A stretch of 26,940 bases of DNA from a virus. Every line of letters begins with the position of its first letter. Positions within the stretch are counted from its first letter, which is position 1. The notes under the pieces are model-generated. The model was not told the origin of the DNA, did no database searches, and saw nothing but the letters and a program-made list of their open reading frames with translations. Positions 730-26,881 of this stretch are shown here, one piece after another. The stretch covers positions 1-26,940 of the IMG/VR virus record IMGVR_UViG_3300028394_000273. One strand, given 5' to 3'. The translations under genes and the position numbers were made by a program.

Positions 730-848
730 ACGCCTTTCACAAAGACTTTATGAAAACCTTTTACCCTCATTTTTGGTCAGCACCTAAAATACAGCCTAAA
801 AGGGATATTAGGGTTCGCCAGTTCCATGTATTTGCGAGGGCAAGATGA
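726..848 (+). CDS. 40-residue basic protein, unknown function
   Basis: A short reading frame that fills what would otherwise be a 115-base gap. Its ATG at 726 overlaps the preceding stop (ATGA) and its TGA at 846-848 overlaps the ATG of the 208-aa gene, so it is stitched into the operon at both ends. The product starts MNAFHKDFMKTFYPHF and is rich in Lys, Arg, Phe and His. A similar run is seen at the C-terminal ends of some phage early proteins, but no domain is recognisable. No strong ribosome site is evident, which suggests translational coupling. The evidence is entirely architectural. Confidence 0.5.
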   Translation: MNAFHKDFMKTFYPHFWSAPKIQPKRDIRVRQFHVFARAR

Positions 849-1471
849 GTTATCTAGTAGGCTCTCTGCCACCTTTAAAATGCTTTATACGCAAAGAATT
901 CCTGTATGACCACCACAAGGGTCATGGAGAGTTAGAACCCTGTATCTGGGTGTCTCTCAAAGCCATACGAGGGCAAGTCTTTAGGATTGAGTCTCTCTTA
1001 CCTAGATATGGGGCTTTGTACGACAAACTACCCATCCACGCTTACTGTTGGAAAGATGGCGGTGACTTGCCCTTAGACGCTCTCCAGTTGTGGGATTGTC
1101 TAGGGTATCGGTTTACCATCATTGAAAAGGTTTTACTCAGGAATCTAAGTGTCAAGGTCTTTGGAAAAGACCGCCAATGGCACTTTGGTACTTATATGTT
1201 TACTGTGGACTTTTGTGCTGACCAGACCGATATTGATACGGGTTTTTCTGAGACCGCAGAGGAACACAAATCCTTTAATTTCATTAAACTCGACAACGGA
1301 CAGTTTGCTTGCCAACCCAACAATCGGTGTATCTGGTACGATCAAAGTCTAGTCTCAGGAACACTAACTCCAGACTTTAATGTTGCCACCCAGACCTACT
1401 CGGTGGACGGGTCACGCAAGTGGGTTGCCTCAGATGATTGGTTTTACGATATAAGGAGTCGAGATGCTTAG
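845..1471 (+). CDS. conserved phage protein, unknown function (208 aa)
   Basis: A soluble 208-residue protein rich in aromatic residues, with no signal peptide or TM segment. It has several Cys residues (for example around positions 13, 33, 68 and 84), a basic LPRYGALYDKLP stretch near residue 55 and a Trp-rich C-terminus (WVASDDWFYDI). It resembles uncharacterised proteins found in early regions of aquatic phages, but I cannot name a family. GAGGG lies just upstream of the ATG, which overlaps the preceding stop as ATGA. The last codons overlap the start of a 33-aa membrane protein by 8 bases. Confidence 0.65.
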   Translation: MSYLVGSLPPLKCFIRKEFLYDHHKGHGELEPCIWVSLKAIRGQVFRIESLLPRYGALYDKLPIHAYCWKDGGDLPLDALQLWDCLGYRFTIIEKVLLRNLSVKVFGKDRQWHFGTYMFTVDFCADQTDIDTGFSETAEEHKSFNFIKLDNGQFACQPNNRCIWYDQSLVSGTLTPDFNVATQTYSVDGSRKWVASDDWFYDIRSRDA

Positions 1472-12862: not shown

Positions 12863-13444
12863 TTATTCCACCAATTCTTTTTTAGGTCTGCCAGATTTCT
12901 TAGCAGTTAACTGATTAACCAATTCCCTCAATTGTGCCATTTCTTCCTCTTGTTGTGCGAGTTTGGCATCGGTTTCAGCACGAATTTTATCGAATACTGC
13001 GGAATCCTTGGCTGCGGCTATGAACGCCCGAGCCTTATCCCGTAGGTCGTTAAAGCCCATGATCTTGTTGCCCACGCTGTCTGCAAGTTGTGCAAACTGG
13101 TCAATTGTGAAGATATGCAAAGCCTTAAATTCAGCCTTTTGGGTCTCGCTAATTGCTGACCACACATCAATTGGAGTGCCTGATACCCGTTGTTCTTTCT
13201 TTTGCTCAAAACGCGCCCACTCAATTGGAAATTCGTCAATGTCTTGTTCGCGCATAGGACGATCTACCACCAAAGTGGAGTCACCAGGCACTAATTTCTT
13301 CAAAAATATCTTTTCTTCAAAGATCGGACGCTTTTCGGTCATTGTCTTGAAGTTGTTTTGCACTTGCACAGTATGGAAAAACACCGCCATCTTGCCTCGG
13401 TTGTCTTCCATAAAACTATCATTTGTCCAGTTTGCGTCTTGCAT
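12863..13444 (-). CDS. conserved phage protein with C-terminal coiled coil, unknown
   Basis: A 193-residue protein. The N-terminal half (KMAVFFHTVQVQNNFKTMTE, then PGDSTLVVDRPMREQDIDEF) looks beta-rich. A helical segment follows (FKALHIFTIDQFAQLADSVG, then GFNDLRDKARAFIAAAKDS), which reads like a helix-hairpin-helix style repeat. It ends with a coiled coil (AKLAQQEEEMAQLRELVNQL) and a basic GRPKK tail. Related proteins sit just upstream of adaptor genes in short-tailed phages; I know no experimentally defined role. A connector assembly or virion-internal function is possible. It begins one base after the DUF115 gene ends. Confidence 0.6.
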   Translation of the reverse strand: MQDANWTNDSFMEDNRGKMAVFFHTVQVQNNFKTMTEKRPIFEEKIFLKKLVPGDSTLVVDRPMREQDIDEFPIEWARFEQKKEQRVSGTPIDVWSAISETQKAEFKALHIFTIDQFAQLADSVGNKIMGFNDLRDKARAFIAAAKDSAVFDKIRAETDAKLAQQEEEMAQLRELVNQLTAKKSGRPKKELVE

Positions 13445-13445
13445 A

Positions 13446-14168
13446 TTAAGTCCTTTGTTTAAGAATTTTGGCAGTTTCCTGCATCAGCCCGTCACCATGA
13501 AATATAACCTCTGCGTCTTGAGTCTCCAAGAACTTTTCCATCTCTATCGCAGCTTGCACCATTTGCTTAGTGGTTTGGAATGTCCTCTCACCCGCTTGGA
13601 CTAGGATTTTTTCCTGTTCCTTGCCCAAATGTTCCCCCGCGTGTCTGCTCTCTGTAAAACTGTTATCCATACCAAAGATATGGAACTTTCTGTACCCAAG
13701 AGCTGCGCTCACATTCATCGCCCTCATACCTACTGATGACCCACCACCGATCAGGCTCTCCATCCCCTCTGGATGTTTGTCTGCTACCCACGCCACAGTC
13801 TCAAAGTCATCCCCGTTGACCAGATGCCATATCTTGACCTGATGCCTCTTTAAAGCCTCAAAATAGGTCGGATGGCATACAGATGCCAATAGGTACTTTG
13901 TAGCCTTCTGGGGCTTCTTTAGCATCCTAGCCTTATGTTCTCTAGGGTCGCAGTCAATGTGCCAATCAGGTGTTATCCCCTTGTCCACTAAGAAGTCGTG
14001 CGCCCCTGATACTGTGACCATTGGGCGTTTGATGGTTTTCCAAGTGTCTTTTAGGGATGGGCCATAACAGACGATAGACACCCACCGATCATTGAATTTG
14101 TCTCGCTTTTTCAACAATGGGAGGTGTAGCGACTTCTCCATCTGCTTATGCCTTTCGGCATTGGTCAT
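13446..14168 (-). CDS. DUF115 / MptE-like protein (second copy)
   Basis: A 240-residue protein with the motifs of the DUF115 (MptE-like) fold: CYGPSLKDTW, IDCDPREHKARM, LIGGGSSVGMRAMNVSAALG and HIFGMDNSF. These line up with the motifs of the N-terminal domain of the fused protein encoded at 14611-16233, so the two are paralogous domains. Known members include archaeal MptE (a pterin pyrophosphokinase) and the Maf flagellin glycosylation factors of bacteria; the phage proteins may act on sugar nucleotides or glycans. I moved the start from 14183 to the ATG at 14168, which overlaps the methyltransferase stop as ATGA and has AAGG upstream. Confidence 0.75.
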   Translation of the reverse strand: MTNAERHKQMEKSLHLPLLKKRDKFNDRWVSIVCYGPSLKDTWKTIKRPMVTVSGAHDFLVDKGITPDWHIDCDPREHKARMLKKPQKATKYLLASVCHPTYFEALKRHQVKIWHLVNGDDFETVAWVADKHPEGMESLIGGGSSVGMRAMNVSAALGYRKFHIFGMDNSFTESRHAGEHLGKEQEKILVQAGERTFQTTKQMVQAAIEMEKFLETQDAEVIFHGDGLMQETAKILKQRT

Positions 14169-14767
14169 AACGCCTTTAAGCATTCAACCCTCATATCTCT
14201 AAATGGGAAATGGTAGTTTGGCTCACAGAACTTGATCTCTGTCATGCCTACCGATTCAAGCATATTTCTTAATGGATTTTGAAACCAACCCCATTTGTGG
14301 CACATTGCCTCGCTTTTGTGCTTGGGGTCACCATATAACGCCCACATGGTCATAAAGGGCTGTAATGGCTCTTTGCTATGGACGCAGTTGGTTACATAGG
14401 CAAACACCTTATCCATGCAAGGCATTTCGAGAATCATCTTACCGCCTGGCTTTAGGATTCGTTTCCACTCTGTCAGCACATCAGCGACTTCCCACTCGTA
14501 GAAGTGCTCTAGCACATGGATAGCTGCCACCGCATCCGCGCTGTCTGAGGCAATTTCTAGTTTTCTAAGGTCGCACTTGATGTCGGAAATATCTGAGTGC
14601 AGATCGACATTTATCCATCCGTCCCATTTTTTATTACCGCATCCGAGGTTGTACGCAGTTTCGTAAGTGTCTTCCACTTGTCGATCAGTATTCTTGGCGT
14701 AAATTCGTCCGTTACGAACTTCTGCGCCTTGGATATTAGGGAGTTGATGTCCTGTGTCTGTGTCCAT
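14165..14767 (-). CDS. class I SAM-dependent methyltransferase
   Basis: A 200-residue enzyme of the Methyltransf_11 type. Motif I is YNLGCGNKKWDGWINVD (Leu41-Gly44 start the SAM loop), an acidic residue follows at the end of strand 2 (Asp55), then AAIHVLEHFYEWE and WKRILKPGGKMILEMP (motifs II/III). L-G-C-G-x-x-x-x-x-G-W-x-N-x-D is common in enzymes of polysaccharide and glycan clusters. The start at 14767 has AAGGA five bases upstream, and the SAM loop itself lies inside the region shared with the glycosyltransferase gene, so the 157-base overlap is real. Substrate unknown; a glycan is likely given the neighbours. Confidence 0.85.
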   Translation of the reverse strand: MDTDTGHQLPNIQGAEVRNGRIYAKNTDRQVEDTYETAYNLGCGNKKWDGWINVDLHSDISDIKCDLRKLEIASDSADAVAAIHVLEHFYEWEVADVLTEWKRILKPGGKMILEMPCMDKVFAYVTNCVHSKEPLQPFMTMWALYGDPKHKSEAMCHKWGWFQNPLRNMLESVGMTEIKFCEPNYHFPFRDMRVECLKAL

Positions 14768-16233
14768 TTAATTCCTTCTAAGATGTTGCCTACATAAATA
14801 TGGGGTATTCCAAGGTCTCTCTCGCTGACCACAAAACACCCTTGTCGGATTGCCTCTACTGCCCTGTTGGGACTCTTATATTCTGCGGTTGCAGGCATTA
14901 AGACAATATCTGCTCTCGCAAATTCTTTTAGCATGGTCTCATGCGACCAAGGAATAGCACCGCCAAAGTTGGACACCACCCGTAAGTTGTAGCCCTCTAG
15001 GTCTGGCAATATGCGCTCTAAACTGTGTTTGTTGACTGCGTGACCATACCAAAGGAGGTTTAGCCCGTTGTAGTGCGGTTTGGCTTCTGGGTACTCGTAA
15101 GGGTCACCAATCACAGTAGCGTCCCTTCCGTGTTCCTTGATGATCTTTGCCATTGTCTCTGTTGGGCAAGTCACAGCATCCGCAAGTCTCAATGCCTCTT
15201 TGTAGTGAACCCAATCAAAATGGTCATCACAGAAATCCACGATCACCCATGCACCTCGAGCCTTGGCTCTCGCCATCTCCATCAGTTCATTGGCTTGTGG
15301 TTTGGCAAATATGAGGGTATCGGCAGTAAAGTCGTTGAGGCTTGCCCACCCTTCGCTCACGATCTTGGCTCTGTACCGCCAACTAGCGGAAGTTTTGTCA
15401 CCAAAGTGGATAAATGAAACCCTGTCGTTTGGCTCTTGTTTGTTGTCAATCAAGGCTTGCAGCTCGATTCCGTTCTGCTCTCTCTTCTTGATGATCGCTT
15501 GAATCAGCCCATGCCCAAACCCGTAGTAGTGGGAATCAGGTAGGTAGTCGTAGTAAGTTTGGAAGTGTTCGGCTTGCAGAGCCATAGCTGCGTTGCAGTA
15601 GAAAGTCTCTCCGTCTTGCTCTATTCTGACCTCAGTCAGTTGATCGCCCTCTTTAAGACCCGAGCCATTGATTCTTAGCGTATCGCCTGTTAAACAAGAA
15701 TCAAACCCAAATAGAGCAAAGTGTCTCCATCCGAGCACATAGAAAAGGGAAATAGCCCGTAATCCCGAGGTAGTCCCTCCCCCGATCAGTAGACTGTTTT
15801 TAGGTCTGTCTTGACCCTTCATCACATAGGGATGCCAGATCGTGACTTTATGCCCCTTTAGGTTGTCAAACATAGCCTTGTGGCATTGAGAGGCAATCAT
15901 GTATTCCACGCCTACATTGGGCTTGTGGAACGATATTCTGTGCTCTTGGGGGTCTATTGCTAGGGCGTAGTCTGGTATCACCCCGTTGTCTATCAACCAA
16001 TCGTGTGCGTCTTTAATTGCAACGATTAGAGTTGTTTTGGACATCTCTCTAATGACATCTATTTGCCCCGCCACGCTCGGCCCACTCGCCACTAGCATGA
16101 TCACCCCGTTTTTGGGGGATTCCTGTTTCGTCACTTGGGGGTAGCCACGCGCTACCGCACTCTCCATGTTTTGAAACAAAGTCTCATCGTCAGCAACACA
16201 CTTACCGACAATCTTTAGGGGAACAAATGTCAT
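14611..16233 (-). CDS. fusion of DUF115/MptE-like domain and GT-B glycosyltransferase
   Basis: A 540-residue two-domain protein. Residues about 40-260 are DUF115-like: VASGPSVAG (48-56), AIDPQEHRISF, LLIGGGTTSGLRA (148-160) and FGFDSC (175-180). Residues about 270-525 form a GT-B-like domain: VSFIHFGDKTSASWRY, LLWYGHAVNKHSLERI (393-408), then ADIVLMPAT and SPNRAVEAIRQGCFVVSE (454-471), the usual donor-binding segment of GT4-type enzymes, and FTPRILIDKW near the end. It probably builds or transfers a sugar; acceptor unknown. Its last 157 bases also encode the start of the methyltransferase. A hairpin covers the region of its ribosome site. Confidence 0.8.
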   Translation of the reverse strand: MTFVPLKIVGKCVADDETLFQNMESAVARGYPQVTKQESPKNGVIMLVASGPSVAGQIDVIREMSKTTLIVAIKDAHDWLIDNGVIPDYALAIDPQEHRISFHKPNVGVEYMIASQCHKAMFDNLKGHKVTIWHPYVMKGQDRPKNSLLIGGGTTSGLRAISLFYVLGWRHFALFGFDSCLTGDTLRINGSGLKEGDQLTEVRIEQDGETFYCNAAMALQAEHFQTYYDYLPDSHYYGFGHGLIQAIIKKREQNGIELQALIDNKQEPNDRVSFIHFGDKTSASWRYRAKIVSEGWASLNDFTADTLIFAKPQANELMEMARAKARGAWVIVDFCDDHFDWVHYKEALRLADAVTCPTETMAKIIKEHGRDATVIGDPYEYPEAKPHYNGLNLLWYGHAVNKHSLERILPDLEGYNLRVVSNFGGAIPWSHETMLKEFARADIVLMPATAEYKSPNRAVEAIRQGCFVVSERDLGIPHIYVGNILEGIKWTQTQDINSLISKAQKFVTDEFTPRILIDKWKTLTKLRTTSDAVIKNGTDG

Positions 16234-16242
16234 TAGAAAGCC

Positions 16243-16261
16243 CTCTCCTTTTTGGGGAGAG
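16243..16261 (-). promoter_or_regulatory. hairpin overlapping the ribosome site of the DUF115-GT gene
   Basis: The 39-base gap 16234-16272 is the largest noncoding stretch in the late unit. On the - strand it reads CTCTCC, a seven-base CCAAAAA loop, then GGAGAG. The GGAG that could serve as Shine-Dalgarno for the ATG at 16233 is in the 3' arm; an alternative GAGGG partly outside the stem also exists. There is no U-run after the stem on either strand, so it is not a classical terminator. It could reduce translation of the enzyme gene relative to the capsid genes or stabilise the upstream mRNA end. Confidence 0.4.
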
Positions 16262-16272
16262 AGCGTCCGCTT

Positions 16273-16806
16273 TTAGACTGGGTTAGAAGTCATCAAGCCT
16301 GCATTGTTTACTACGCAGAAAGGCGCAGATGCAGAAGTGGCAGATGTATTAGCCACGATACCTTGGATGTAACCAGCCGACACAGTTGCATCGTCCAATT
16401 TACCCGCAGTAGCGGTGGTATACAAAGGCACTTTAGGTTGGCAAGCAATCAACAAGTTAACTTGCAACACTCCGTTAATACCAATCCAACCATAGTAGGA
16501 AGAAGCGATAGCGGTTTGTGCAAAGCCAACCATGTTGTAACCCAATGCCGCAGCGTTGGTCGTTGTGACAGGCACAGCGCGGAGAACAGGAGTCAAACTC
16601 GCTGAATCTGCGTATGTGCTCATGATCACAGCGTCAAACTGGTTAATGGTGGACTCTGCGCGAGCAAAGACATAGACACCATTGTTGGTTGTGTTTACGC
16701 GAGTGCCTGGTGTGACAGGAAATAGCGTAGTAGAGCCTGCGGAGGTTGACGCATAGGTTGCGGTCAAGTCAACGCCAATTTTTCCATCGGTGATGTAATC
16801 AGCCAT
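16273..16806 (-). CDS. capsid-associated (decoration-like) protein
   Basis: A 177-residue beta-rich protein with many Thr/Ser/Ala residues, for example TTLFPVTPGTRVNTTNNGVY and SSYYGWIGINGVLQVNLL, and no helix-rich region. It begins five bases after the major capsid gene and has a composition typical of head decoration or fibre proteins encoded directly downstream of capsid genes; the V-x-A-R-A-E-S-x-I-x-x-F-D-A-V turn resembles DUF2190-type decoration proteins only loosely. It is probably a structural protein bound to the shell. Confidence 0.55.
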   Translation of the reverse strand: MADYITDGKIGVDLTATYASTSAGSTTLFPVTPGTRVNTTNNGVYVFARAESTINQFDAVIMSTYADSASLTPVLRAVPVTTTNAAALGYNMVGFAQTAIASSYYGWIGINGVLQVNLLIACQPKVPLYTTATAGKLDDATVSAGYIQGIVANTSATSASAPFCVVNNAGLMTSNPV

Positions 16807-16811
16807 GATTT

Positions 16812-17792
16812 TTACTCCGTCATAATGCCTTGGAACTGGAGTCCCGAGGCTGTCATGTTACCCGCCCATCCAATCAAGCGCACAATCGCGTCTTGGTTGG
16901 TACTCATACGCTCATCGCCTATTGGGACGAAGTTGCGGTTTGCGTGAGGACGGAAGAAGATGTATTTCGTGTTAAGGAAATAACCAGTAGATGCGGGGAT
17001 ATTTCCACCGATACCACCATCAAGAACCACATCTGCGTTCATATACTTAGAGGCAACAAAGCCGAGTTCGGCCATTTTGCTTGAGCCAGGGAAACGCTGA
17101 ATGTTCTGTAAAGAAGCCATGAAGAATGACCACAAGTTGTTATCCAACAAGATCAAGTCCACAACATCTGAACCGCGAGAGGTCTTGGCATACAAACGAT
17201 TGAAACCAGTTTGAATGTTAGACGCGCTTGCGCTTACACCGAGGTCGCTAGAGAAGTCAAAGGTCTGGTTTTGCCAGAAAGACCAAGTAGCACGATCAAT
17301 ACCGCCAACAACACCAGTAGATGGTGATGCGACAACCATTGCCTGCAAGCCTGTGATCTGCTTACCATTGTTCGCTGTTCCGTCCGAGTAAATACCCGTA
17401 GAGATCAAGTTCTCAATAGAAGCCTCTGCTACATCTAAACGGGCATCAAACAAATCAATGATCTGCTCTTCGCCTGAGTTTTGCAACATCTCAAGTCCGT
17501 TAATGGTAACTGCCACGGCAGCTTGCTTAATCGGGAACTGAGCCGCGCTGATCACATCCGCAGGGGATATGTTCAACACTTCAGCACCAGAGTAATACAT
17601 GGCTGTGGAGTTTGCTTGGAATGACAATTCTTGCAGAATAGTCGAACCACCCGTGAAAGGCTTGTAACGGCCTTTCTCTCTCAGACGGGTTAACAACGCA
17701 TTGTTTTTAGTCACGTTGTCGGCAACGATGCCAGAACGCGACTCAATGGTGGTTGCTAATACATCTGAGTAATTACTATTGGCGTATGCCAT
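16812..17792 (-). CDS. major capsid protein
   Basis: A 326-residue protein directly downstream of the scaffold gene. The N-terminal part contains VADNVTKNNALLTRLREKGR and PFTGGSTILQELSF, followed by a helical spine-like region (EEQIIDLFDARLDVAEASIE) and a C-terminal beta region (KYIFFRPHANRNFVPIGDER, ending SGLQFQGIMTE). Tracts of this sort are found in HK97-fold coat proteins of short-tailed phages. Ribosome site AAGGGGAA lies just upstream of the ATG. Several hundred copies would form the shell. Size and place fit; there is no N-terminal prodomain of the HK97 gp5 type. Confidence 0.82.
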   Translation of the reverse strand: MAYANSNYSDVLATTIESRSGIVADNVTKNNALLTRLREKGRYKPFTGGSTILQELSFQANSTAMYYSGAEVLNISPADVISAAQFPIKQAAVAVTINGLEMLQNSGEEQIIDLFDARLDVAEASIENLISTGIYSDGTANNGKQITGLQAMVVASPSTGVVGGIDRATWSFWQNQTFDFSSDLGVSASASNIQTGFNRLYAKTSRGSDVVDLILLDNNLWSFFMASLQNIQRFPGSSKMAELGFVASKYMNADVVLDGGIGGNIPASTGYFLNTKYIFFRPHANRNFVPIGDERMSTNQDAIVRLIGWAGNMTASGLQFQGIMTE

Positions 17793-24235: not shown

Positions 24236-24528
24236 TTGACCACCATTTCGATTGCGCCTTCATCTGCGCCCGTTATCTCTGTCCTAGCAAGTTTAGGCAC
24301 ATGGTATTCCACTACGCTTTGGAATAACTCAAATGCCTTTGCAGGGTTGGGTTTTATATCTGCCTCAGGAATGCCATCTGCGACCTTATCTAGCCACTCT
24401 GCTAATCTGTGTGCATTACCATCAACAAACAAAGCAATCGCCTCCCTTGCCTGTTGTGTGGTCTTGTTGGGCGTTCCTGATGTACGCCCTCCCGCCTTCT
24501 TCCTACTTTTAACTACTTTAGTTTCCAT
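24217..24528 (-). CDS. terminase small subunit-like DNA-binding protein
   Basis: A 103-residue protein beginning with a basic lead (METKVVKSRKKAGGRTSGTP), then NKTTQQAREAIALFVDGNAH and a helical C-terminal half (AFELFQSVVEYHVPKLARTE). The G-R-x-x-G-T-P-N-K-T start followed by helices is what I associate with small terminase-like proteins that recognise packaging DNA; the E-Y-x-x-P-K-L-A-R-T-E segment is also a recurring feature. Placement directly before terL supports it. No convincing Shine-Dalgarno precedes the ATG; the sequence there is very AT-rich and the gene overlaps its upstream neighbour by 11 bases. Confidence 0.75.
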   Translation of the reverse strand: METKVVKSRKKAGGRTSGTPNKTTQQAREAIALFVDGNAHRLAEWLDKVADGIPEADIKPNPAKAFELFQSVVEYHVPKLARTEITGADEGAIEMVVKWEGAK

Positions 24529-25846
24529 TATAAGTATTTTTAATTATAAGTTTTTCTTTGGGTACATCATAAGATTCATAAGGAAACTTAGCCCGTCTTT
24601 CTGTATCCGTCATATTTAAGCGTTCTTGGACTGCTCTAGCCTCTGCTTCGCCAGCCAAACGGAAATATGATTCCATTGGGTTATCAGAAAGTCTAGCCGC
24701 TTCCACAGCCTTATCTAATTTGTCACCAGTTCCTACTCTTTCAAGTGCGGCAAATGCCCCTGCGCTTGGTTTTCGTTGAAATACTGATTCAAACCTTTGC
24801 TGTGCTTCTAATTGACTTAAGTTTGCACCACGCATCATTTTGTCAATAATTGCCGAATCTTCTAATGCTTGCGTAGTAAACACATCATGTGGCTTAAACA
24901 TTTTTGGGTTACCGCCAGGATGAAACCCCTCTTTGGCTTGCACAGCGTGTTGCAGTTCATGGGCATATACATCTATCGGTGTTGGCTCATTGGTTGGAAC
25001 GCGAATAGTTCCACCTTCCCCTAATTGCCAATCTAATTCCCTCTTTGGGGCTTCGTAGGATGCCATTTGCTCATATTCTGGTGTTGGCACTACTTTTACG
25101 CCTCTAGGCAATTGCTCATAAGAGGCTTGCAGTTCTGGGTGCTTGATCACCAATGCGCCACCCGTGTTCCTAAAATCTTGTATACCAAGGTTTTGGTCGC
25201 TTATCTCTTGTCTCCACTTACCTTCTGGGCCACGGAATGTGCCTGTTTCTGTCCAAATCTCTTCTGGTGTTGCGCCTTTCTTCTCCATTGCTTGCGCTCT
25301 AACAGCATCTACTTTGTCCCAAGTCTTTGCGTTTTCACCAATAAATATCTGTAAAGGCTTGGGTGTCATCTGCCCAATAACCGATCTGGTCGGCTGTCCC
25401 GTCATCCCTGCGTTGATCTCGTTACCCAATAAACTGAGGTAGCCTTTTACCGCAGGCATTGGGTTAATTGGCGCAAAGCTGCCCATTCTTCCCGCAACAT
25501 CACCAATTGGTGTGTTTGACTTTAATGGCATTGTTTCTAAATAATGTTCCGTATCAGGGTACTTTTGCTGTCCTGTAAACGCTTGGCTAAGAAGTTGTAG
25601 CGGTCTGACCATTGGTATTGGTTGGTTTACTACATCGCCAAATAAACCCCGTGTGCCAGCAATACGCCCTCTTAGCACATCCACAGGCACATTGGCACTT
25701 GCCGTTATGTCTTGCTCAGACCGATAAGGTTTCATCTGCGGAAATACACCAAAGGCGGGGCTTTGCAATGCTGCCATGCGCTCAATCTCTTGTGGGGTTG
25801 GTTGCGATGTACCCAAGGCTTGGGCTAATGCTCTGTAATCAGGCAT
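24518..25846 (-). CDS. LPD23-like polyvalent protein with HExxH metallopeptidase motif
   Basis: A 442-residue protein (start at the ATG 25846, overlapping the previous stop as TGATG). Residues about 165-215 contain NAKTWDKVD, ATPEEIWTETGTFRGPEGKW and RQEISD; residues 292-312 contain VYAHELQHAVQAKEGFHPGG, which includes HELQH (296-300), an HExxH zinc-protease signature; a LAGEAEARAVQERL segment (398-411) could supply the third ligand Glu. This matches my memory of the LPD23 associated domain of large polyvalent proteins, which phages and plasmids deliver into the recipient. Protease activity is an inference; no substrate is indicated. Confidence 0.7.
   Translation of the reverse strand: MPDYRALAQALGTSQPTPQEIERMAALQSPAFGVFPQMKPYRSEQDITASANVPVDVLRGRIAGTRGLFGDVVNQPIPMVRPLQLLSQAFTGQQKYPDTEHYLETMPLKSNTPIGDVAGRMGSFAPINPMPAVKGYLSLLGNEINAGMTGQPTRSVIGQMTPKPLQIFIGENAKTWDKVDAVRAQAMEKKGATPEEIWTETGTFRGPEGKWRQEISDQNLGIQDFRNTGGALVIKHPELQASYEQLPRGVKVVPTPEYEQMASYEAPKRELDWQLGEGGTIRVPTNEPTPIDVYAHELQHAVQAKEGFHPGGNPKMFKPHDVFTTQALEDSAIIDKMMRGANLSQLEAQQRFESVFQRKPSAGAFAALERVGTGDKLDKAVEAARLSDNPMESYFRLAGEAEARAVQERLNMTDTERRAKFPYESYDVPKEKLIIKNTYNGN
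24527..24548 (-). promoter_or_regulatory. paired TATAAT boxes at the start of the TerS-like gene (weak promoter candidate)
   Basis: On the - strand two TATAAT hexamers lie at 24548-24543 and 24532-24527, the second running into the ATG of the TerS-like gene, within a stretch far richer in A and T than its surroundings. Neither has a recognisable TTGACA at 16-18 bases. It may be a weak internal promoter for the packaging/head genes or simply the AT-rich codons of the preceding gene (KEKLIIKNTYN). Confidence 0.2.
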
Positions 25847-26211
25847 CAATATCTCTTAGAGTAATTGAGCATAAATCTTGGCGGTGGGGCTTGTAACCTT
25901 CCATGTGGGTCAGTCATAGGGATAGGAGGTGGTCTGTTGTAACGCATTCCATAAGTCTCATCACCCTTTTGATACGCCAAATCCATGCCCTGTGCTTTTA
26001 ATTCTTGAAAATTGGGCGTTTGTACCCCAGACATACTTAAACCAGCGTTTATTGATTCATTGTTTGACAATGGAATATTTGCGCCAATTCGACCCCCGCC
26101 AGCAAAGCCTTTTGGTATTGCGATAATATTGCCAGATGCGTCATAGCGAACTGGTGATGACAACGCTTTAGCCAATTGACTGTAAATTTCTTCATCACTA
26201 TATTCAGGCAT
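25846..26211 (-). CDS. small protein paired with the polyvalent gene, unknown (121 aa)
   Basis: A 121-residue protein. A helical acidic start (MPEYSDEEIYSQLAKAL) leads to YDASGNIIAIPKGFAGGGRI and then alternating strand-like residues (GANIPLSNNESINAGLSMSG; MDLAYQKGDETYGMRYN) that read like beta-hairpins of a small barrel. The C-terminus is Pro-rich (NRPPPIPMTDPHGRLQAPPP). I cannot name a family. It overlaps the glycosyltransferase gene upstream by 8 bases and the polyvalent gene downstream by the TGATG, so the three are presumably co-translated. Confidence 0.5.
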   Translation of the reverse strand: MPEYSDEEIYSQLAKALSSPVRYDASGNIIAIPKGFAGGGRIGANIPLSNNESINAGLSMSGVQTPNFQELKAQGMDLAYQKGDETYGMRYNRPPPIPMTDPHGRLQAPPPRFMLNYSKRY

Positions 26212-26881
26212 GAGCGTTTTCCTTCATGTTTATCAGCCCGTTAAGCATTCTTGACTTGGTTTTGTGCCATTCCTGAGAATACGCGCAATTCTTGTAATGC
26301 TCAAACTCTGGTATTCCAAGAGTGTAATGCGCTATCTTGGCGTTGTGTTGATCTTCACCCACCAAAACATTCCACTCTTCTGGTAACTCACCTATCTGAT
26401 CGTCTTTTAGCCACTCAAACCGATGTAGTTCACTTCCTGTATGGTCATCCACAAAATCAGGGTCTAACACCTTGTTGTCAGGATGCTCACAGTTCCACAG
26501 TATCAGGCTCGACCAGTTCTTTCTCGGATAGTTCTCGTTCTTGGTCTCCATCGCTGTGCCAATGTATTTCCTTTTGTGTTTGGTAAAGTAATTGTGCTTA
26601 ACTACTTGCACCGCCTTGGTGGGGTCAAATAACTTGTCCAGTTCGGCTATGTCGGCAAGCATCAGCATATCGCTTGCATCCATAAATATCGCCCTACCTC
26701 TAAACCCTGTGAAGTAAGGCACTAAGAATCTTTGGTAGATAAATGTGTTCGACCCGTCTCTTTGCTTGCCAAAAAAAGGCGTGATCGCCACCGCTTCTGA
26801 GGTGCGCTCAATCAAGGATTGGGTAAAAACATGATACCCAATAGCCTCCCGAGGGTCGTAGCCTGCAAAGATTCTGATCAT
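26204..26881 (-). CDS. GT-A (GT8-like) glycosyltransferase
   Basis: A 225-residue enzyme. MIRIFAGYDPREAIGYHVFT opens the Rossmann-like fold, GSNTFIYQRFLVPYF follows, and IFMDASDMLML (66-74) gives the metal-binding D-x-x-D equivalent (Asp68/Asp71). Further typical segments are NWSSLILWNC (122-131), VGEDQH and HYTLGIPEF (185-193). This type of single-domain transferase is common in phages and is normally thought to move a hexose onto a glycan, lipid or virion protein. The start overlaps the stop of the partial gene at the right edge (ATGA). Confidence 0.75.
   Translation of the reverse strand: MIRIFAGYDPREAIGYHVFTQSLIERTSEAVAITPFFGKQRDGSNTFIYQRFLVPYFTGFRGRAIFMDASDMLMLADIAELDKLFDPTKAVQVVKHNYFTKHKRKYIGTAMETKNENYPRKNWSSLILWNCEHPDNKVLDPDFVDDHTGSELHRFEWLKDDQIGELPEEWNVLVGEDQHNAKIAHYTLGIPEFEHYKNCAYSQEWHKTKSRMLNGLINMKENAHA

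Follow-up and report, generated by a model that had tools for sequence, protein, structure and literature searches.

A conserved capsid-side cassette of Maf-like, glycosyltransferase and methyltransferase genes in uncultured phages, a putative module for sugar modification of the particle

Described systems and how the locus compares

Enzymes of the Maf/PseD type move nonulosonic acid onto Ser or Thr residues of proteins. Maf glycosylates flagellin directly, in the cytoplasm (PMC4065374). FlmG, the flagellin glycosyltransferase of Caulobacter, has a TPR and a GT-B domain (PMC7591256). In mycobacteriophages, capsid and tail subunits carry glycans (Freeman et al., 2023, as cited in PMC12619734). 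A literature search returned nothing linking DUF115 or MptE-like proteins to phage particles, in agreement with the first-pass annotation, which knew of no characterised phage system of this composition; none is described in the literature searched.

The cassette lies in a viral DNA of 26,940 nt (here called the window; positions 1–26,940 of IMG/VR record IMGVR_UViG_3300028394_000273). Its two DUF115 proteins share with Maf/PseD (Magnetospirillum Maf, 5mu5; Aeromonas Maf1) the predicted fold of the central DUF115 domain and GPS, G-T-V and FGxD-type motifs. Unlike Maf/PseD, the window has the central domain alone, fused to a GT-B domain or free-standing, and its genes are found in the phage late-gene region.

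In coliphage P1, PmgO and PmgP match a phage DUF115 profile (28–29 bits; PF01973 is below cut-off), and PmgQ matches the GT-A partner profile with 142 bits; the PmgQ family is fused to DUF115 elsewhere. The P1 order pmgO-pmgP-ppp-pmgQ (L513, 650–3208) differs from that of the window by the phosphatase gene in between. The similarity is remote, no methyltransferase is recognised in the stretch viewed, and the P1 genes, unlike the cassette, do not adjoin the major head gene. All three pmg genes were scored non-essential for lytic growth (PMC10695390), and they look like distant, tractable relatives of the cassette. Podovirus MW202512 has genes for a TPR protein, a methyltransferase and a GT-A enzyme between its capsid and stabilization genes, the GT-A being a homologue of the window gene at 26204–26881, and no DUF115 was seen in this stretch. 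This set of genes is reminiscent of FlmG; the C-terminus of the TPR protein was judged a glycosyltransferase by eye rather than by profile match.

The cassette and its predicted enzymes

Three tightly packed ORFs occupy positions 13446–16233 on the minus strand, a DUF115–GT-B fusion, a SAM methyltransferase and a second DUF115 protein, all three where the first-pass annotation had placed them as an overlapping set among capsid, decoration-like, 193-aa and adaptor genes. The PHROG matches agree with that setting. Upstream are the major capsid protein (16812–17792, minus strand; phrog_9953, major head protein, 5.3e-104), a candidate acceptor also used as anchor of the surveys, and a virion protein in the decoration position (16273–16806, minus strand; phrog_29386, virion structural protein, 3.5e-6), a second candidate acceptor with 21.5% Ser+Thr. 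Downstream, the cargo site is bounded by a 193-aa protein (12863–13444, minus strand; phrog_20268), a conserved neighbour in relatives, and the connector side includes an SU10-type adaptor/tail protein (PHROG, 4e-44) and the portal (1.6e-178). A tRNA search found none.

The fusion (14611–16233, minus strand) has 540 aa. Its N-terminal part matches PF01973 at 2.7e-18, above the curated Pfam cut-off, and in the AF2 model (pLDDT 77.7) residues 11–250 (15484–16203, minus strand) match Maf glycosyltransferase 5mu5 with Z 18.6 over 221 residues. Residues 268–531 (14641–15432, minus strand) match SenB (Z 21.0), BshA (20.7) and PimA (20.5), so that the model gives a clear two-Rossmann GT-B fold of the GT4 type; Pfam GT-B families stay sub-threshold for this half (0.0023; 18.6 bits vs. 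cut-off 27). The second DUF115 protein, of 245 aa (13446–14183, minus strand), matches PF01973 at 1.3e-16, again above the curated cut-off, and its model (pLDDT 71.3) matches Maf 5mu5 first, followed by MptE/HPPK 8sd5 and the GT42 sialyltransferases CstI/II (Z 9.7). Both models, built on alignments of 11–14 sequences, are of moderate confidence. Predicted structures thus bear out the DUF115 (Maf-like) fold in both proteins and the GT-B fold in the fusion.

The DUF115 family had been linked on first pass to Maf factors of flagellin glycosylation and to MptE. The tie to Maf holds by fold, profile and NCBIfam; that to MptE is the weaker, with Z 11.3 vs. 16.1 for Maf in the 245-aa protein, which passes the PF01973 cut-off and does not have MptE as its nearest solved fold. 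A profile built from nine phage DUF115 domains finds Maf 5mu5 at 1.6e-12 and MptE at 1e-4, and the best NCBIfam match of both DUF115 proteins is flagellin modification protein PseD (4.9e-7). Full-length Maf architecture is absent (28.7 and 20.7 bits vs. the NF050051 cut-off of 670), and the detectable homology is confined to the central domain. In the models, both DUF115 domains are closest to the Maf flagellin glycosyltransferase, with the pterin kinase MptE behind it. The two genes form separate, well-supported clades with a weakly supported sister relation, and their origin by a recent duplication was rejected.

The protein of 200 aa (14165–14767, minus strand) matches Methyltransf_11 at 6.2e-10 (40 bits vs. 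a Pfam cut-off of 21.2), has an invariant motif I, NLGCG, and classifies by sequence as a class I SAM-dependent methyltransferase. Its best NCBIfam match is the mycofactocin oligosaccharide methyltransferase MftM (4e-7), whose equivalog cut-off it misses (29.6 bits vs. 200). The methyltransferase gene overlaps the fusion gene out of frame by 157 nt (14611–14767, minus strand), with both frames open in 34 non-redundant loci and the SAM motif (14636–14650) encoded inside the overlap, and it overlaps the gene of the 245-aa protein by 19 nt (14165–14183).

A probable fourth enzyme, missed on first pass, is a GT-A-like nucleotide-diphospho-sugar transferase of 225 aa (26204–26881, minus strand). 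The protein itself has no Pfam match. A 78% identical homologue has a weak Glyco_transf_8 match (5.9e-4), and phages of Pelagibacter, Synechococcus, Stenotrophomonas and Caulobacter have homologues with glycosyltransferase or nucleotide-diphospho-sugar transferase annotations. All 10 long relatives have the gene. In the capsid-side cassette of another phage locus (L405) a homologue of it follows a DXD-bearing ORF of 221 aa and an MT-DUF115 fusion, and the GT-A-like protein probably belongs to the same system as the cassette. The DUF115 half of the L405 fusion is 34% identical to the 245-aa protein; the window methyltransferase was considered as an unfused form of the L405 methyltransferase domain and rejected, there being no detectable similarity outside the DUF115 half.

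The start codon of the cassette is closely preceded by a terminator-like hairpin with a T-rich tail (16240–16264, minus strand), likewise missed on first pass, whose 3' arm contains a Shine-Dalgarno-like AAGGAG. All 29 distinct upstream sequences have a hairpin and T-rich stretch in the gap from the decoration stop to the start of the cassette; the bases of the hairpin change among these variants, yet a stem remains. A sigma-70 promoter scan of the region gave fewer sites than in shuffles. The hairpin could keep cassette expression below that of the coat genes, or hide the ribosome site. The first-pass suggestion that the cassette is expressed together with the coat protein is called into question, equal co-expression being doubtful because this conserved structure separates the two sets of genes.

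Conservation and rebuilding of the capsid-side site

IMG/VR contains 113 relatives of the fusion, 80 of which were retrieved (61–96% identical). Complete, unbroken copies in IMG/VR relatives number 74 for the fusion, 71 for the methyltransferase and 65 for the 245-aa DUF115 protein, and pairwise dN/dS, where defined, is about 0.04–0.17, many comparisons being saturated at silent sites. Given these copies and the low dN/dS, the ORFs are evidently not chance. Since selection of loci by a cassette gene would be circular, relatives were also retrieved by the capsid protein, using only loci with enough downstream sequence; in these the fusion is present in 63/63, the methyltransferase in 50/50 and the second DUF115 gene in 49/49. 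The cassette is fixed in the clade of the window. Every far-reaching locus has the order capsid, decoration, fusion, methyltransferase, DUF115, 193-aa, adaptor, and the downstream gene g521 varies strongly among relatives while the cassette stays fixed. As expected of a virion-glycosylation cassette, glycosyltransferase genes adjoin the capsid genes and are conserved there. A search of 50,697 phage records matched neither the fusion nor the 245-aa protein, and a GTDB genome scan found no relative of the fusion.

Among wider capsid relatives the same site is often without DUF115, or has another DUF115 gene. BUCT555, ppBjS10J-1, Mx8 and RHph_I3_18, cultured phages with a related capsid, have no gene annotated as DUF115, glycosyltransferase or methyltransferase in the interval from capsid to connector, where BUCT555 has lysis-type genes. 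In the closed intervals of two capsid-anchored surveys, DUF115 occurs in 1/67 and 26/66 (five of the 26 belong to the window clade), and DUF115-anchored searches add many more loci at the same site. In a capsid scan, 6 of 73 closed intervals came with DUF115, every one of these six contigs belonging to a metagenome-assembled genome. Throughout the capsid family studied, the site follows the capsid and decoration genes and extends to the 193-aa gene or the adaptor.

The partners of DUF115 at this site are diverse. Glycosyltransferases include GT-A with a DLDT-type motif (a cluster of 19), GT2 (L203), GT8 (L228) and GT-B (the window clade); methyltransferases are of the Methyltransf_11/25, FkbM or Methyltransf_24 type. 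Fused forms comprise DUF115-MT (L102, L166 and L187) besides the MT-DUF115 of L405. Of 43 dereplicated DUF115-bearing intervals, 27 have both a glycosyltransferase and a methyltransferase, 7 a glycosyltransferase only, 1 a methyltransferase only and 8 neither; either enzyme occurs in 0 of 85 DUF115-less intervals, a contrast that is inflated, just as 43:85 is no population frequency, because DUF115-bearing loci served to train the GT and MT profiles and some of the loci had been collected by the DUF115 search. This neighbourhood survey supports the grouping of the three kinds of gene made on first pass. A 338-aa protein of one relative was considered as another glycosyltransferase and found no support. 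On the capsid tree, the DUF115 label needs 16 state changes, 8 of them forced by well-supported branches, which implies repeated gain or loss of the module. The comparisons describe a real, conserved, repeatedly rebuilt capsid-side module with predicted sugar-modifying enzymes.

The capsid-connector site accepts different cargo: unrelated large, unannotated proteins fill the interval in place of DUF115 in L086 (2733–4964), L087 (7833–11375) and L116 (7716–11987). Placement also varies: a marine lineage has DUF115 genes, including DUF115-MT fusions, among apparent tail-region genes, and L193 and L275 have DUF115 beside the terminase, so that position alone does not name the acceptor. One of the six contigs of the capsid scan (L506), 649 kb long and from the bin of an uncultured Isosphaeraceae, has a DUF115-methyltransferase fusion beside a related capsid gene, possibly in a prophage.

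Proposed function and competing explanations

Glycosylation and methyl-capping of a virion protein, in line with the first-pass suggestion, is the best reading of the locus, and we hold it at slightly better than even chances. Because the same kind of set recurs at the site, the particle itself is probably where the virus builds and caps a sugar. The cassette, inserted between the genes for decoration and connector proteins, would glycosylate protein in the cytoplasm. In the order of steps that we infer, one Maf-like domain, that of the fusion or of the 245-aa protein, would act before the head is assembled or while it is, placing a first sugar on Ser/Thr of a structural protein of the virion in the way that Maf modifies flagellin; the decoration or the major capsid protein would be the likeliest acceptor. 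The GT-B domain would extend the sugar, probably with the GT-A-like protein and the other Maf-like protein, and the methyltransferase would cap the glycan by O-methylation. The donor would be an activated sugar of the host, because 10 long relatives yielded no epimerase-type sugar-nucleotide gene. The benefit may lie in shielding, adhesion or particle stability. The three cassette proteins lack the hydrophobic stretches typical of membrane enzymes, and the cytoplasmic action of Maf (PMC4065374) fits soluble cassette enzymes. Capsid and decoration proteins of DUF115-bearing phages are significantly enriched in Ser/Thr in the raw comparison, an enrichment that loses its significance with independent pairs, in which phylogeny is allowed for and which had little power.

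The enzymes might instead have a tail, neck or fibre protein as their substrate and serve adsorption tuning or connector assembly. The cassette does border the connector genes, marine DUF115-MT fusions sit in an apparent tail region, and a tail fibre candidate has 25% Ser+Thr; we nevertheless regard this as rather unlikely, as the site invariably comes after the capsid and decoration genes within this capsid family, and the cassette is fixed where g521 is strongly variable. An altered host surface glycan, made late in infection as the first-pass annotation had alternatively suggested, could hide the receptor and so keep phage from superinfecting the cell or re-adsorbing to debris. Some phage glycosyltransferases are known to change the serotype of the host (noted in PMC12619734) and late expression would fit, but the proteins lack membrane segments, no lipid-carrier glycosyltransferase or flippase was recognised among the genes examined, and DUF115 groups with a protein glycosyltransferase. 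Lysogenic conversion is likewise not seen, as no integrase occurs in 10 relatives of 34–36 kb, and such a host target is judged improbable.

Still lower is the chance that the phage DNA is hypermodified with a methylated sugar, which we take to be very unlikely even though DNA-modifying phage glycosyltransferases are known (Pyle et al., 2024, as cited in PMC12619734). The 10 long relatives have no thymidylate-synthase-type gene, and the nearest relative of the DUF115 domains is Maf. DNA-modifying phage enzymes are, moreover, usually encoded by early genes. That the DUF115 proteins are pterin kinases of the MptE type, making the cassette the source of a small molecule, is suggested by the name of the Pfam family and by the match to 8sd5; it seems hardly credible, given that Maf is the better match in both proteins, that DUF115 is fused to or lies beside glycosyltransferases and methyltransferases, and that no pterin-pathway gene was found among the genes scanned.

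Returning to modification of the particle, a Maf-type domain is repeatedly joined at one genomic site to glycosyltransferases and methyltransferases of unrelated families, which suggests that in uncultured phages the surface chemistry of the particle is under strong and varying selection. The wider proposal, that a widespread group of such phages has turned a Maf-type system into a rebuilt capsid-side cassette for glycan building and methyl-capping, with P1 pmgO, pmgP and pmgQ as a distant member, is given a little less than an even chance. It makes a testable prediction for these three P1 genes, annotated mainly as of "putative morphogenetic function".

Two other genes of the window may be mentioned. 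A gene on the opposite strand (845–1471, plus strand) encodes a 208-aa protein matching PHROG 3704, "ferredoxin", at 3e-78, and having no Pfam match. A 443-aa protein with an LPD23 polyvalent-protein domain (24518–25849, minus strand) is 36% identical to its counterpart in the record of a relative (L002), though the terminases of the two are 97% identical.
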